A stretch of DNA of 64,000 bases, from NCBI RefSeq assembly GCF_028680575.1, contig NZ_JAPCKI010000001.1, forward strand, positions 62,001 to 126,000. Reading direction: 5' to 3'. Numbering within the stretch: the stretch's first letter is position 1; each line of letters starts with the position of its first letter. The notes beneath the pieces are model-generated. The model had not been told where the DNA came from and made no database searches. It saw only the letters and a program-made list of their open reading frames with translations. Made by a program: the position numbers and the translations under genes. This stretch comes from Acidovorax benzenivorans (GTDB lineage Bacteria > Pseudomonadota > Gammaproteobacteria > Burkholderiales > Burkholderiaceae_C). This document shows, piece by piece, positions 5,364-57,028 of the stretch.

Positions 5364-6608
5364 TCAGCGCGCTGCCGGGCGCAGCGCCAGTGGCCAGCGC
5401 CACGCCATGGTGGCATACAACACCGCGCCCACCCCCAGCGCGGCAGCGGCCACGGCCAGCCCATACACAAACCCCTGGCCCTGCGTAGCCGCGTGGTGCA
5501 GCATCCACGCCACCATGGGCGGGCCCACGATCTGCCCGATGCCATAGGCGGCGGTGAGCAGCCCCGGAAAACTGTCACCCGCCGCAGGCCACACACGCCG
5601 CGCCTCCTGCAGTGCATAGAAGGTGATGGCCGTGAACGGCAGTCCCAGCAGCAGGCTGCCCAGCGCAAACCCCGCAGGCCCCGGCCACACCAGGCTGAGC
5701 GCAATGGCCCCGGCCTGCACGATGTAAGCCGCCATCAGCAGCCAGCGCCGGTCCCACGCGGCCGGGGTGCGGGTGGTCAACGCCGCGCCCAGCGCCACAC
5801 CGGCACCAAACAGCGGCCAGAACAGGTCCGGCCAGGGCGACCCGGCGGGCAGTGCTGCGCGCGCAATCACCGGCAAAAAAGTGGCGGTGACGATGTAGCC
5901 CAGCCCCGCCAGCCCGTAGGCCAGCGTGAGCCCCGCGCGCGCCCAGGGCCCATGGCCGGGGGTAGAGCCGTCCACCACAGGCCCGGAGGCTGCCGCCGAC
6001 GCGGGCAAGGCCACGCCCTGCAACACCGGCCAGATGGCGGCGCACAGCCCCACACTCAGCAGGCCAAACACGCCCCAGCCCGCCGCTGCGGGCCACTGCA
6101 GGGCCACCATGGCACTGGCCGACAGGCCGGTGAGCACGATGCCCAGCCCCGGCCCACAAAAGATCAACCCGCCCAGAGCGGGCTGGCCCAGCGCCACCAG
6201 CCGCAGCATGCACCACACCGAGACGTTCAAAAACACCAGCGCACTGGCCACCCCTGCTGCAAACCGCAGCGCGGGCCAGGTGCCCGGCAGCGGCAGCGCC
6301 ATGCCCAGCGTGAGCAGCACCGTGGCCGCAAGCCCCCAGCGCGCCAGCCGCGCCGCGTGCCACCGCTGGCGCGCACGGGGCGCCACCCAGGGCAGCGCCA
6401 TGCAGGCCAGCGCCCCGATCAGGTACCCCAGGTAGTTGGCCGTGGCCAGCCAGCTCCCCCCCGCCAATGTGACCACGCCGTCGTGCAACATCATCGGCAG
6501 CAGCGGCGTGAAGGCAAACCGGCCTACGCCCATGGCCACCGCCAGGGCGGCCATGCCCGCCAGTGCTACGGCCAGGGGGCGGTCTTGGGGGGCGGTGCGC
6601 GGTTCCAT
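5364..6608 (-). CDS. MFS transporter, YbfB/YjiJ family
   Basis: Inner-membrane protein of 414 residues with about 12 hydrophobic segments. The N-terminal ...AVAMGVGRFAFTPLLPMM and WLATANYLGYLIGAL blocks are characteristic of the YbfB/YjiJ branch of the major facilitator superfamily, whose substrates are mostly unknown. It is divergent from a LysR-type regulator 72 nt away, an arrangement in which the regulator often controls the transporter. Export of a small metabolite is plausible but not shown. Confidence 0.85.
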   Translation of the reverse strand: MEPRTAPQDRPLAVALAGMAALAVAMGVGRFAFTPLLPMMLHDGVVTLAGGSWLATANYLGYLIGALACMALPWVAPRARQRWHAARLARWGLAATVLLTLGMALPLPGTWPALRFAAGVASALVFLNVSVWCMLRLVALGQPALGGLIFCGPGLGIVLTGLSASAMVALQWPAAAGWGVFGLLSVGLCAAIWPVLQGVALPASAAASGPVVDGSTPGHGPWARAGLTLAYGLAGLGYIVTATFLPVIARAALPAGSPWPDLFWPLFGAGVALGAALTTRTPAAWDRRWLLMAAYIVQAGAIALSLVWPGPAGFALGSLLLGLPFTAITFYALQEARRVWPAAGDSFPGLLTAAYGIGQIVGPPMVAWMLHHAATQGQGFVYGLAVAAAALGVGAVLYATMAWRWPLALRPAAR

Positions 6609-48940: not shown

Positions 48941-49026
48941 ACCTTCCATCGATCTCCCACCCACAGCGTGTTGAGGCCACGTTGCGGGTTTCCTTGCGCC
49001 TCGAAAAAATCACTGGAGACAAAACC

Positions 49027-50769
49027 ATGCGCTTGAAGATGAGAAGAACCCGGATGCGTGCATCACAACCCCTGGCACTCTCGGCCGCAGCCGCCGCCTT
49101 GCTCATGGGCTGCGGCGGCTCGTCCGATGCCGCCCTGCCCCAGCTCACTGCCGCCACCCCGGCCACCCTGCAGTCGTGCGCCACCCTGGCCAGCAGCCTG
49201 GCGCTGCCCGACACGCGCATCACCTCTGCCGAGCAGGTGCCCGCAGGCCCACTGACCCTGCAGGGCAACACCACACAAGCGCCCGCACACTGCCTTGTCA
49301 AAGGCAAGATGAAAGAGCGCACCGGCCCCGTGGATGGCGCCAGCTACGCCATCGGTTTTGAGATGCGCCTGCCCGTGGAGTGGAATGGCCGCTTTCTGCA
49401 CCAAGCCAATGGCGGGCTGGACGGCAGCGTGGTCACCGCGCTGGGCTCGGTGAGCGGCGCCGCACCCGTGGCACCCGGCCTAGTGCAAGGCTTTGCGGTG
49501 CTCAGCTCTGACGCAGGCCATGGCGCACCCACGCCCTTCTTTGGTGTGGACCCGCAGGCCCGGTTGGACTACGGCTACCAGGCCGTGGGCACCCTCACCC
49601 CCATGGCCAAGAACCTTATCAAGAGCGCCTACGGCAAAGCGCCCGACCGCTCGTACCTGGCCGGCTGCTCCAACGGCGGCCGCCACGCCATGGTGGGAGC
49701 ATCGCGCTATGCCGAACAGTACGACGGCATCTTGGCGGGCAACCCCGGCTTTCACCTGCCCAAGGCCGCCACCACCCAACTGTGGAAGGCGCAGCAGTAC
49801 GCCAAGGTATCCACCAAGGACGCGACCAGCGGCCTGCCCGACCTGACCACCGCCGTGAGCCCGGCCGAGTTCAAGCTCATCAGCAGCAAGATCGTCGCCA
49901 AGTGCGACGCACTGGACGGCGTGACCGACGGCCAGGTCAACGACGTGGCCGCCTGCCAGGCCGCCTTCAACCTGCAGACCGACGTGCCCACCTGCACCGG
50001 CGCGCGCGACGGCTCGTGCATCTCCGGCGACCAAAAGAGCGTGCTGGCCAGCATCTTTGCCGGCCCCAAGAACAGCAAGGGCGAAGCGCTGTACACAGGA
50101 ACCTGGTTCGACCCCGGCATTGCGGGCGCCAACTTTGCATCGTGGCACTTTGGCTCGCCCGCCACGCGTGACGCAGGGGCTGTGGCCTTCATCTTCACCT
50201 CGCCCCCATCCAGCGTGGCAGCGTTCACCGCCATCCCCGGCATGCAGTACGCGCTGAACTTCAGCATGGAGACGGACTACCCCAAGATGTTCGCCACCAA
50301 CGCCACCTACACCGAGTCGTCCTGGTCGTACATGACGCCGCCCAACGAAGCTGACCTGAGCGCACTGAAGAACCGGGGAGCCAAGATGATCGTCTTCCAC
50401 GGCGTGGCCGATGGCGTGTTCTCGCCCATGGACACCGCCAACTGGATGGACCGCCTGCAGGCCAACCACAGCGGCAAGGCCGATGCGTTTGCCCGCCTGT
50501 TCCTGGTGCCCGGCATGAACCACTGCTCCGGCGGCCCCGCCACCGACCAGTTCGACATGCTGGCCCCGCTGGTCGCCTGGGTGGAACAAGGCAAGGCACC
50601 CGACAGTGTGACGGCGAAAGTGCGCGGCGCAGGCGCCAACGTGGTCAACGCCGAGCTGCCCGCCAGCTGGTCCGCCAACCGCACCCGGCCGCTGTGCGTT
50701 TACCCCAAGGTGGCGCGTTACAACGGCACGGGGGATGTGGAGAGCGCAAGCAGTTTCAGCTGCAAGTGA
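49027..50769 (+). CDS. Tannase / feruloyl esterase family lipoprotein
   Basis: 580-residue secreted esterase. The start at 49027 follows CTGGAGAC and gives a lipoprotein signal ending LLMGC (lipid-modified C29). The catalytic Ser is S215 in GCSNGG. The acid and His lie in FHGVADGVFSPMDT and PGMNHCSGG, with the CS-D-HC disulfide layout typical of tannases. It would release ferulate or related acids from plant esters outside the inner membrane and so feed the downstream operon. Its 3' end has a decayed second copy at 51401. Confidence 0.9.
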   Translation: MRLKMRRTRMRASQPLALSAAAAALLMGCGGSSDAALPQLTAATPATLQSCATLASSLALPDTRITSAEQVPAGPLTLQGNTTQAPAHCLVKGKMKERTGPVDGASYAIGFEMRLPVEWNGRFLHQANGGLDGSVVTALGSVSGAAPVAPGLVQGFAVLSSDAGHGAPTPFFGVDPQARLDYGYQAVGTLTPMAKNLIKSAYGKAPDRSYLAGCSNGGRHAMVGASRYAEQYDGILAGNPGFHLPKAATTQLWKAQQYAKVSTKDATSGLPDLTTAVSPAEFKLISSKIVAKCDALDGVTDGQVNDVAACQAAFNLQTDVPTCTGARDGSCISGDQKSVLASIFAGPKNSKGEALYTGTWFDPGIAGANFASWHFGSPATRDAGAVAFIFTSPPSSVAAFTAIPGMQYALNFSMETDYPKMFATNATYTESSWSYMTPPNEADLSALKNRGAKMIVFHGVADGVFSPMDTANWMDRLQANHSGKADAFARLFLVPGMNHCSGGPATDQFDMLAPLVAWVEQGKAPDSVTAKVRGAGANVVNAELPASWSANRTRPLCVYPKVARYNGTGDVESASSFSCK

Positions 50770-50785
50770 TCAGCGCTTGAAAAGC

Positions 50786-51277: not shown

Positions 51278-51400
51278 ACAGCAGTTCCTTCACATTGAAT
51301 GTTGGGCGGAGGGCGATATCGGCTCCTGCTCTTAAGACGTGTGATGTGAGGGTGCTGTGACAGACGCTGGCGCAATGAGTGCGGGTCCGTCCGTGGTCGC

Positions 51401-51550
51401 CCGTGTGACAGCGAAGGAACGCGGCGCCGGGGCCAATGTGGTCAACGCTGAGCTGCCCGCCAGCTGGTCTACCCACCACATCCGGCCGCTTTAGCAAGCG
51501 ACAACTGCATAGGGGACGTGCAGAGTGCGAGCAGTGCCAACTGCAAGTGA
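51401..51550 (+). pseudogene. Decayed 3' end of a second tannase/feruloyl esterase gene
   Basis: Translates VTAKERGAGANVVNAELPAS and then a degraded tail, against VTAKVRGAGANVVNAELPAS at the C-terminus of the intact tannase. A TAG at 51492-51494 interrupts the frame after RPL. Similarity then resumes, out of register, to the shared ending CTGCAAGTGA, and even the downstream CGCTTGAAA and terminator are retained. About 50 codons remain; the 5' part is absent. Confidence 0.85.
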
Positions 51551-51567
51551 TGACCGCTTGAAAGTGC

Positions 51568-51594
51568 AAAGCCCGGCATGTGCCGGGCTTTTTC
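51568..51594 (+). terminator. Terminator retained downstream of the tannase remnant
   Basis: Stem AAAGCCCGGCA / TGCCGGGCTTT with a two-base loop and a T-tract. It lies at the same place relative to the remnant as 50786 does to the intact gene. Confidence 0.85.
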
Positions 51595-51599
51595 CACTG

Positions 51600-51890
51600 T
51601 GAAGATTGGCTTACGGGGTCCGCTCGGTGCGCCATTCCTGATCCCGTGAATTGATCACACCATCAGGTGCACGCTACAGCCTATACACCCGGGTCAAACG
51701 GCCGGTTTGTCAGAGTAGCGTCATCGTCGTACAGAAATAGCCATGTCATCCACTTAGTCTTGATGCAGCAGCACTTTTCTGCATGTGCACCTGCTCGCTC
51801 TAGTCAAACATCAACGCTTCCCCCAACGCGAAAAAACGTGCATTTTTCATAAGAACCGCTAGAGTGTAATTTTTCGAAACACTAACGGAT
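51600..51890 (+). ncRNA. AT-rich leader of the deaminase gene; candidate AvcI-type RNA region
   Basis: 290 nt with no convincing protein frame. In Vibrio cholerae the toxin-like deaminase AvcD is held inactive by AvcI, an RNA encoded just upstream, so this is where a counterpart would be sought. Visible structure: ATGCAG...CTGCAT (about 51763-51785) and GAAAAA-N7-TTTTTC (about 51831-51849). The promoter could be near CATAAGAACCGCTAGAGTGTAAT in two parts. No sequence match to AvcI is claimed. Confidence 0.25.
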
Positions 51891-53474
51891 ATGACCGAAA
51901 CCGCGACTGTAGGCAATACCCCATCTTTAGAACGACCAGAATTGGTGTTTGGCTTAATCGGACCTATTGGCACCGATCTTGAGGCAGTCTGTACGGCACT
52001 GGAACAGAGCATATCGGTCGCAGGTTATAGGACTTCACTTGTCAGAGTGAGCAAGGAAATAGAGAGCATTTTCGGCCAATCTTTTGAAAATGTTACCGAG
52101 GACGAAAGAATATCCAGCCTCATGGACCTTGGAAACAAACTAAGAGTTGACGGCAAAAATGCTGCAGCAGCAGCTATTATTTCCATTATGAAAATAATGG
52201 AAATACGAAAAAACACTCCTTTGGAAAATCATATTGATGGCAATCCAAAAGGCAATGCATATATTCTACGCTCCATTAAAAATCCACAAGAAATAGAACA
52301 ACTTCGACTTGTATATGGAAAAGGATTTATTGCCATCTCTGTTTCCGCCCCCAGGGAAGAGAGACTATATGCAATAGCACAGCGAATTGCCAAGTCCTAC
52401 TTAGGAAGCCGCCCCCAAAGCAGCGCTGAAGCGTTAGCAAAGCACCTCATTGATCGTGACGAAAGCGAAGATAATAGCAACCATCAAAACGTCAGAGATT
52501 GCTTTCCTTTGGCTGATTTTTTCGTTGACGCCTCCAACAAGGAGTTAATGCGCAAGCAAATCCGCCGATTTCTTTATCTCACTTTTGGACATCGATTTCA
52601 CACACCATCAATTGATGAACATGGAATATTTCAAGCCTCAGCTGCCGCATTGCGATCGGCGGATTTAAATCGACAAGTGGGTGCCGCAATCGTTCGGACT
52701 ACCGGAGAAATTATCGCCGTTGGCTGCAACGATGTTCCGAAAGCAGGCGGCGATCAATACTGGGACGGAGATGACGCCGACATGAGGGATTTTGTCTTAG
52801 GTGTGGATTCCGGCGCACAACAGCGAGAGGAAATGCTGAGTGAGTTACTTGGTCGCCTAAGAGAAGGGGGAATATTGAATGCCAGTATTGAGAAGCAAGA
52901 GATTGAGAAATTGGCAAAGTCTTTACTCTACGGAGCTAACAAACAGAAGCTGAAGGGCGCGAGCCTCATGAATCTTCTTGAATTTGGTCGCAGCGTGCAT
53001 GCCGAGATGGCAGCTATCACTACAGCAGCTCGACTCGGACTGGCAGTCAAAGATGCCACTTTATACACCACAACATTCCCTTGTCACATGTGCGCGCGGC
53101 ATATTGTTGCCAGCGGGATAAAGGAAGTCGTTTATATTGAACCCTACCCAAAAAGTCGAGCCAAACAACTTCACAAAGATTCAATTGACACCGATGGCAC
53201 ATTTAACCCAAAGGGCAATTACGTAAAGTTCAGGCCTTTCCAAGGAATTGCTCCTCGTCAGTATCAAACGATTTTCATGGCCAATGATATGAGAAAAGAT
53301 GGGCAAGGAAGAGCTATAGAATTCGCGATGACAAATGGCAAACTACGCTGGCAAAGATTTAACAACAGTTACATGCAGAATGAAGCAGCCTTGATTGAAG
53401 TCGTCTTACCAGATATAATTGCAAACTTAAAAGCCGAGAAAGCAGCCTCACCCAAGGAGAAAACAAATGAATGA
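51891..53474 (+). CDS. avcD: Anti-phage dCTP/dCMP deaminase (AvcD family)
   Basis: 527-residue two-domain protein. N-terminal P-loop-like domain (~15-230) has a degenerate Walker A GLIGPIGTDL (21-30) without the usual Lys. C-terminal deoxycytidylate deaminase domain has zinc ligand H370 and catalytic E372 (SVHAEM) and C398/C401 (PCHMC). The architecture matches the AvcD/DCD defence proteins that deplete dCTP/dCMP during phage infection. The gene is clearly AT-rich compared with everything around it, a sign of transfer. Its ribosome site is weak. A 58-codon ORF overlaps its stop. Confidence 0.88.
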   Translation: MTETATVGNTPSLERPELVFGLIGPIGTDLEAVCTALEQSISVAGYRTSLVRVSKEIESIFGQSFENVTEDERISSLMDLGNKLRVDGKNAAAAAIISIMKIMEIRKNTPLENHIDGNPKGNAYILRSIKNPQEIEQLRLVYGKGFIAISVSAPREERLYAIAQRIAKSYLGSRPQSSAEALAKHLIDRDESEDNSNHQNVRDCFPLADFFVDASNKELMRKQIRRFLYLTFGHRFHTPSIDEHGIFQASAAALRSADLNRQVGAAIVRTTGEIIAVGCNDVPKAGGDQYWDGDDADMRDFVLGVDSGAQQREEMLSELLGRLREGGILNASIEKQEIEKLAKSLLYGANKQKLKGASLMNLLEFGRSVHAEMAAITTAARLGLAVKDATLYTTTFPCHMCARHIVASGIKEVVYIEPYPKSRAKQLHKDSIDTDGTFNPKGNYVKFRPFQGIAPRQYQTIFMANDMRKDGQGRAIEFAMTNGKLRWQRFNNSYMQNEAALIEVVLPDIIANLKAEKAASPKEKTNE

Positions 53475-53643
53475 ACAATCTTTTGAGGAAAGAATGAAAT
53501 TAATTTTGGAAGAACTGAACCGAAGGAAAATTGATACCTCTCCTCCAATGCCTCGCCTAGAAGGTACCGATGAGTTCCATGAGCGGGCCAAGCTATCCCA
53601 TTATGACGATCCAGTTCACCTGATTGCTGCTCTGGCTCATTGA
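53467..53643 (+). CDS. 58-residue protein overlapping avcD, unknown
   Basis: The ATG lies inside the last codons of avcD (8-nt overlap, other frame), with a perfect AAGGAGA six nucleotides upstream, itself within avcD. The product starts MNEQSFEERMKLILEELNRR (amphipathic, charged helix) and ends DDPVHLIAALAH. Base composition matches avcD, so both arrived together. It is too short for a catalytic domain. A modulator, inhibitor or partner of the deaminase is the obvious hypothesis. I do not recognise any family. Confidence 0.75.
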   Translation: MNEQSFEERMKLILEELNRRKIDTSPPMPRLEGTDEFHERAKLSHYDDPVHLIAALAH

Positions 53644-53996: not shown

Positions 53997-54205
53997 CGCA
54001 CAGTTCGGGGCCGGAGACCCCCGCGTATTCACTAACGCGAACAGACATGGCAAGTCTGCGTCCAGTAGCTTCTGGTCATGGGTGGACGATTAGAGAAATC
54101 TGCGCAGCATGGTCGTAATCCACTACGCGAGTGCAATGCCTTTCACGCGTGCGACAGGGCCCACACGAGCATTTGTCGAGCCCGCCGCTGTCGCCGTTGT
54201 GTGAC
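53997..54205 (-). pseudogene. Decayed 3' end of a second pobA-like gene
   Basis: The plus-strand sequence aligns, with indels, to the last ~65 codons of the intact pobA (about 54850-55065): shared AGCTTCTGGTC, GCAGCATGGTCGT.ATCCAC and ATTTGTCGAG. The minus-strand translation begins DSGGLDKCS against DSTGLDKYS in PobA, then frameshifts and a stop break it. The 5' nine-tenths of the gene is absent. Confidence 0.8.

Positions 54206-54850: not shown

Positions 54851-57028
<2,178 letters not shown>

Follow-up and report, generated by a model that had tools for sequence, protein, structure and literature searches.

Our analysis of a 64,000-nucleotide stretch of Acidovorax benzenivorans DNA (hereafter, the window) supports the presence, at the end of avcD, of a 58-codon ORF whose small product is probably a new partner of a known defence enzyme and probably acts as its antitoxin. 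Comparison of AvcD loci establishes a gene family with a fixed position behind avcD, under purifying selection and with strong matches only at avcD in the genomes searched. As for the window ORF itself, our confidence is about evenly balanced on the full reading, namely that it is a real gene, coupled to the end of avcD, a divergent member of this family and most likely a protein antitoxin, of which translation, binding, inhibition and lability are what we infer. In the published reports consulted, AvcD is treated as an RNA-governed deaminase (PMC10511110, PMC12409362, PMC9455884), and a protein neighbour is new to that picture.

The avcD gene and the ORF at its end

The following features of the window are referred to below:

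51568..51591, no strand assigned: possible terminator, a hairpin of 11 perfectly paired bp followed by T-rich sequence
51592..51890, plus strand: intergenic region, the expected place of an AvcI-type RNA, with no sign of such an RNA
51891..53474, plus strand: avcD, anti-phage dCTP deaminase of 527 aa, with its TGA stop at 53472-53474
53454..53460, plus strand: Shine-Dalgarno sequence AAGGAGA, within the last avcD codons, 6 nt 5' of the ATG at 53467
53467..53643, plus strand: 58-codon ORF (58 aa), a probable divergent member of an AvcD-adjacent small-protein family ("type A")
53482..53538, plus strand: predicted N-terminal helix (codons 6-24; AlphaFold2)
53557..53577, plus strand: LEGTDEF motif (codons 31-37), in register, counted from Met, with LEGSDVF in the homologue at locus L003 (Burkholderia sp. 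SRS-46)

The AvcD of the window is an AvcID or anti-phage dCTP deaminase (DCD) enzyme by its dCMP-type deaminase domain, which scores above the curated cut-off. Residues 17-469 match NF041025 (anti-phage dCTP deaminase; E = 4.3e-135, 450.9 bits, curated cut-off 400), and further matches were obtained with PF00383 (E = 8.3e-21, 74.2 bits, cut-off 25) and with the PADLOC dCTPase model (E = 1.3e-158). This AvcD lies on a long branch of the tree (0.96) and its best identity to the others is 51%, so that a divergent small partner is to be expected in the window.

The avcD segment is low in GC (39-49%, with flanks at 60-68%), and its borders are diverged partial copies of the 3' parts of neighbouring genes (51398-51563 corresponding to 50601-50782, and 54167-54201 to 55038-55072; identities of 84%, 81% and 80%), as if the segment had arrived together with duplicated or remnant target genes. 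The hairpin at 51568..51591 falls within the diverged copy of the terminal stretch of the gene at 48982-50769, and it is absent from the list returned by a consensus terminator scan.

The earlier note on this DNA had described a 58-residue ORF with AAGGAGA six nucleotides before its ATG and an 8-nt overlap with avcD, and we confirmed this arrangement from the sequence: the ATG at 53467 lies inside the end of avcD, in a frame that differs from that of avcD. Over the whole window and both strands, AAGGAGA stands 5-16 nt ahead of 2 of the 1857 ATG codons. The claim that the ORF resembles avcD in composition also holds by codon position, the GC values being 0.60/0.33/0.38 for the ORF and 0.54/0.40/0.41 for avcD, against 0.45/0.41/0.37 directly downstream of the ORF, a comparison by which the ORF looks coding. 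Openness alone says little, because 475 of 3000 dinucleotide shuffles also had an open ATG frame of 50 aa or more in the same zone (66 of 3000 when an SD-like 4-mer was included), and the case for a gene rests on conservation.

The 58-aa sequence had no match in Pfam, PADLOC, NCBIfam or PHROGs and no tblastn match in plasmids or phages, and against 369 genomes of the class it recovered its own copy and eight weak, chance-like matches (best E = 0.004, inside a 231-aa frame). Its relatives were reached via the avcD neighbourhood only, a direct homologue search having found none outside its own genome. AlphaFold2 predicted a helix at residues 6-24 of the window ORF (11 rows; block pLDDT 77, 86, then 58; mean 66) and helices at residues 7-20 and 23-29 of the L003 homologue (block pLDDT 78, 93, 86; mean 70.5), and the two models suggest one confident helix or helix pair, with low confidence beyond, and were judged too weak to support a fold comparison.

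A family of small ORFs behind avcD

AvcD loci were sampled from GTDB genomes (the best 80 of 90) and from viral contigs (20). A screen of 398 other genomes from the window's family added 21 places, spread over 18 of them, and more loci came from the genus and order. Type A ORFs were defined as encoding 50-70 aa on the same strand as avcD, with a start at about -58 to +48 nt from the avcD stop (one at +130) and usually with a Shine-Dalgarno sequence. The AvcD clade of the window comprises 10 rows (FastTree support 99), and all nine other AvcDs in it have, at the avcD end, a 57-70-residue ORF with its own initiation signals. Their carriers are Pseudomonas, Burkholderia, Variovorax, other Burkholderiales or Betaproteobacteria, another genome of the window's family and one viral contig. 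Type A ORFs were also found beside the avcD of L091, L079 and L154. In Burkholderiales bacterium 8X (L023), where the avcD match is in two pieces with an in-frame stop, a small ORF lies behind it (about nt 5510-5660) and is recognisable in its first ~32 residues. An interrupted locus at a contig end (L009) was left out, and L155, which has the same sequence as L006, was not counted.

Relatives of type A lie behind avcD in alpha-, beta- and gammaproteobacteria, and those with a WPxWK-like motif occur in alphaproteobacteria, in Geomonas and in further genomes of the window's family. Profile-profile comparison linked the beta to the alpha subfamily (E = 9e-7) and the alpha subfamily to the set from genomes of the window's family (E = 3.5e-8). 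On a Vibrio nigripulchritudo plasmid (L149) we identified an unannotated type A ORF with ESWPAWK, whose start codon is located about 11 nt before the end of avcD. The type A pattern reads M-K-K-x-S-S-L-A-x-Q-V-x-x-A-Q-x(5)-S-W-x(4)-K-R-x-S-x-[KR]-L-E-G-S-D-V-F, and the tail behind it varies and is often basic; GGAG, AGGA or GAGG is present upstream of the small ORF in 20 of the 24 homologues in alignment A1, and the net charge is basic in most of the 24 type A members. The predicted layout of the family combines an N-terminal helix, a SWPxWK-like turn, a second short helix and a low-confidence tail. Profile A1 matched solved structures only at E values of at least 0.14, and none of the libraries searched has a family name for type A.

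In a leave-one-out analysis, with members and groups chosen beforehand and by eye, all 26 type A members apart from the window ORF came out as the top match of their whole locus (six-frame ORFs), always at E < 1e-3. The earlier note would have been refuted by a lack of conservation behind related avcD genes, with both kinds of change equally frequent; the family withstood this check, being recovered throughout the clade (9/9) and showing pN below pS in all eight pairs of downstream small ORFs (0.22 vs 0.60 for L002/L004, 0.16 vs 0.67 for L005/L091 and 0.25 vs 0.72 for L095/L096); six of these eight pairs are type A and two lie outside the core family, three of the type A pairs have rows in common, overlap with avcD occurs in some of the ORFs, and the L017/L019 pair has only 3 synonymous and 3 non-synonymous differences. 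Across 299 genomes of the family, all seven strong matches to profile A1 were located directly behind avcD, six of them being rows of the profile itself and the seventh (G639, which is L091) independent. Since strong matches lie only behind avcD, the family looks tied to this gene within the sample. The best A1 match in 398 Pseudomonadota genomes reached E = 0.0066. Weak A1 matches in genomes (four in the family and three in Pseudomonadota) were rejected as members, as they look like chance and lie inside other frames.

Judged from these comparisons, the window ORF is quite probably a very divergent copy of type A. Its place, strand, size, overlap and Shine-Dalgarno sequence are as in the homologues, and the LEG[ST]D-x-F motif of the beta subfamily, which is variable among members, is present at residues 31-37, LEGTDEF here and LEGSDVF of L003 being equally far from Met (MAFFT places a one-residue gap in either sequence). 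LEG[ST]D.F was found in one sequence of a 5133-sequence null file that included the window ORF itself. With a profile of 10 close members the window ORF scored 7.9 bits, a value exceeded by 2 of 20,000 shuffles and by 2 of 5132 other ORFs, both of which turned out to be avcD neighbours. It ranked first among the 1004 ORFs of the window with a 12-member beta profile (E = 0.2), and hhalign gave the beta subfamily as its best partner (E = 0.0017, probability 16%). Other results count against membership: A14 and W21 of the helix-turn (L003 numbering) are absent, the window ORF having L14 and K21; the broad profile ranked it 17th of 1004 (E = 4.5, not significant); 60 of 20,000 shuffles and 21 of 5132 ORFs did at least as well in a start-anchored score; and a pairwise search gave no match at E < 1e-3. 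The assignment is based on location, on the overlap and on a single in-register motif, and the statistics behind it are moderate.

The earlier note had also suggested that a coupled small protein would be a new component of the system, as a possible inhibitor, sensor or stabiliser. This suggestion gains from the recurrence of a small ORF behind related avcD genes and loses at the window copy, which is very divergent and only moderately supported by statistics. While that note was concerned with one locus, small-ORF neighbours were found at many of the AvcD lineages examined, in several arrangements.

The upstream region and other small neighbours of AvcD

Folding of 51600-51890 gave no structure signal (z = -0.35), in an analysis that could miss a diverged RNA. 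The upstream region of the window contained no Rfam family at gathering score (one match was sub-threshold), and the stretch common to two enterobacterial upstream regions is absent from the window. Conserved upstream DNA was found in 64 of 238 pairs of loci without a recognised downstream ORF and in 0 of 51 pairs in which such an ORF is present; in another sample, with fourfold-site and synteny controls added, the counts were 47 of 216 and 0 of 51. The groups were assigned by eye in both samples, and the "downstream" group of each also holds loci outside the core family. The idea that an upstream RNA was lost when the protein was gained was discarded, as the conserved stretch is a divergent small gene with codon periodicity on the other strand (two groups aligned).

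Three further kinds of small neighbour were recorded:

L025:3735-3899 and L045:3736-3906, minus strand: examples of divergent small genes, found among L020-L076
Several of L098-L108, L153 and L159, downstream of avcD: type B ORFs, with N-terminal QLELDF, QLSLPL or QLQLF
L151:705-887, L158:124-306, L150:2688-2873 and L160:1148-1318, avcD strand: upstream hypothetical proteins, located where AvcI is described

In rhizobial and related lineages, the divergent gene encodes 47-74 residues, starts about 40-125 nt before the aligned avcD start and forms several subfamilies. Leave-one-out analysis recovered its members at E < 1e-3 in 15/15, 9/9 and 16/18 cases (three subgroups), and pN was below pS in all 15 pairs tested. 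Some of these genes resemble type A, with a WLxxQLxxAxxNL motif and matches to the alpha set at E = 5e-4 and 8e-4 (probabilities of 30% and 25%). None of the eight scanned against Pfam and NCBIfam had a match above cut-off, and none of the seven scanned against PADLOC had a match.

Type B is a second downstream kind, with an N-terminal QLxLxF, found after the avcD genes of a different AvcD clade in the window's family, and a type B-like ORF is also present in Pantoea (L159). Seven of nine type B members ranked first in leave-one-out analysis, only four of nine at E < 1e-3. We take their N-terminal motif to resemble the bacterial sliding-clamp-binding motif (Hda QLSLPL).

Plasmids of E. coli (two records), Klebsiella and Photobacterium encode an annotated hypothetical protein of 56-61 residues on the same strand upstream of avcD, ending C-terminally in W (SKSLKW, SKKITW, AQKIRW). 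The ORFs of L151 and L158 differ with pN 0.31 and pS 0.63, and both loci have in common an invariant stretch before the ORF, with the inverted repeat TGTTATAAAGATAACA. The hypothetical proteins beside genes annotated as 'anti-phage dCTP deaminase' on plasmids (L151, L158, L160 and L161) are like the window ORF in size and adjacency; they are annotated without function and appear unlike it by eye, and those of L151, L158 and L160 are encoded upstream on the same strand, whereas that of L161 is divergent. A coding role for avcI was reportedly considered in the AvcI paper and then rejected.

An unselected pairwise test was applied to 116 loci, after 9 with a short flank or a broken or partial avcD and 11 near-identical ones had been removed from 136. 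A homologous small ORF was recognised downstream at 42 of the 116 and in divergent orientation at 44 (77 in union, both at nine), counts that are inflated by frames overlapping true genes or other conserved DNA, since the controls also scored (distant positions 5 and 7 of 116, downstream antisense 27, same-strand upstream 11, the last two partly at loci with the true gene on the opposite strand) and 15 of the 27 antisense scorers were at loci that also scored in sense. At 39 of the 116 loci, the window included, the test recognised neither a downstream nor a divergent homologous neighbour.

Proposed role and comparison with known systems

We propose that the 58-codon ORF would be translated from its own Shine-Dalgarno sequence, coupled to the end of avcD, and that the small protein would bind AvcD and hold the deaminase inactive. 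Upon phage shut-off of host gene expression, or through host proteases, the short-lived small protein would be lost, and the stable AvcD thus freed would drain the dCTP/dCMP pool. The small size of these proteins, their strong divergence and their tails, which are often basic and modelled with low confidence, are in keeping with antitoxins, and a fast-drifting small protein beside AvcD would most simply do the same job as the labile AvcI antitoxin. An antitoxin encoded downstream of its toxin is the less usual gene order, and the AvcD antitoxin described in print is an RNA; both points count against this reading. Taking all arrangements together, it is possible, although we lean slightly against it, that AvcDs are generally two-protein toxin-antitoxin systems with a fast-evolving inhibitor in each lineage, placed downstream (types A and B), divergently upstream (rhizobial) or upstream on the same strand (enterobacterial, in the place of AvcI), the RNA antitoxin being one form or layer.

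The conservation data would equally fit a partner that is no inhibitor, such as a sensor, activator or assembly factor for infection recognition or oligomerisation, and translation coupling would give the near-equal dosage of a subunit. We nevertheless consider such a role rather unlikely. The strong sequence drift of the small proteins would be unlike that of a catalytic subunit, and AvcD over-produced without AvcI leads to filamentation and homologues are toxic in E. coli, so that no activating partner seems to be needed there (PMC9455884). Should the family be real and the window ORF be no more than a chance reading frame, or a decayed one without function left, the absence of W21 and of a pairwise homologue, the rank of 17 with the broad profile and the 475 of 3000 shuffles that are also open would be accounted for; but the Shine-Dalgarno sequence, the overlap, the codon-position composition and LEG[ST]D.F at the same count from Met argue for a gene, as do the top rank among 1004 window ORFs with the beta profile and the 2 of 20,000 shuffles scoring higher, and we regard a chance or decayed frame as improbable.

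AvcI is an RNA in the published systems (PMC10511110), and in the region upstream of avcD on two enterobacterial plasmids a conserved non-coding stretch accompanies a 60-aa ORF. The window ORF might accordingly lie on an AvcI-like antitoxin transcript placed behind avcD, with its reading frame secondary. However, the small ORFs change more per synonymous site, which is not required of an RNA alone, and neither the structure signal upstream of the window avcD (z = -0.35) nor the conservation of upstream DNA (0/51 pairs) points to an RNA, which makes this reading very doubtful in our view. Finally, the small protein could regulate transcription of the avcD operon instead of AvcD activity. Many antitoxins also autoregulate and most of the 24 members are net basic, yet no DNA-binding family was among the Pfam matches of the members scanned, and the upstream DNA, where an operator would lie, is unconserved among loci with a downstream small ORF; we consider this role highly improbable.

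On the preferred reading of a protein antitoxin, the small protein could explain how AvcDs without a recognisable AvcI stay off, and it would offer phages something to mimic or to destroy. Cloning and testing of the system (toxicity, defence range) would also have to take a conserved protein beside AvcD into account. PHROG 38465 (of unknown function), with matches to the ORFs of L011 (E = 9e-6) and L010 (E = 0.008), was considered as a lead on phage mimicry and dropped; in the two phage records inspected, the tblastn matches (E = 0.07 or worse) fell within a gene of 1.2 kb.

No small protein partner of AvcD is named among the literature titles and abstract openings listed, and a remark in the two 2022 discovery papers is possible. 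AvcID of V. cholerae, V. parahaemolyticus and E. coli is described as a type III toxin-antitoxin system formed by the deaminase AvcD and the AvcI RNA (PMC10511110, PMC12409362, PMC9455884), in which AvcI binds AvcD and disappears once phage shuts off host transcription (PMC10511110). The window locus is like AvcID in its AvcD-type deaminase, identified by a curated model, and in that a small cis-encoded restraining element is expected; it differs in that the neighbour is protein-coding and lies behind avcD, and no upstream AvcI-like element was found in the window. Among protein antitoxins of defence toxins, Sofic is counteracted by AS1, a 47-aa antitoxic protein encoded just downstream, and purification of AS1 or its complex failed in its authors' hands (PMC12249575). 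This is a close precedent, as both cases combine an anti-phage toxin with a small downstream protein; Sofic is a Fic AMPylase and not a deaminase. In RpnL/RpnS, RpnS is a small, highly variable antitoxin translated separately from the end of the defence toxin gene (PMC10327210); RpnS is the toxin's own C-terminal domain, whereas the window ORF is read in another frame and continues past the avcD stop.
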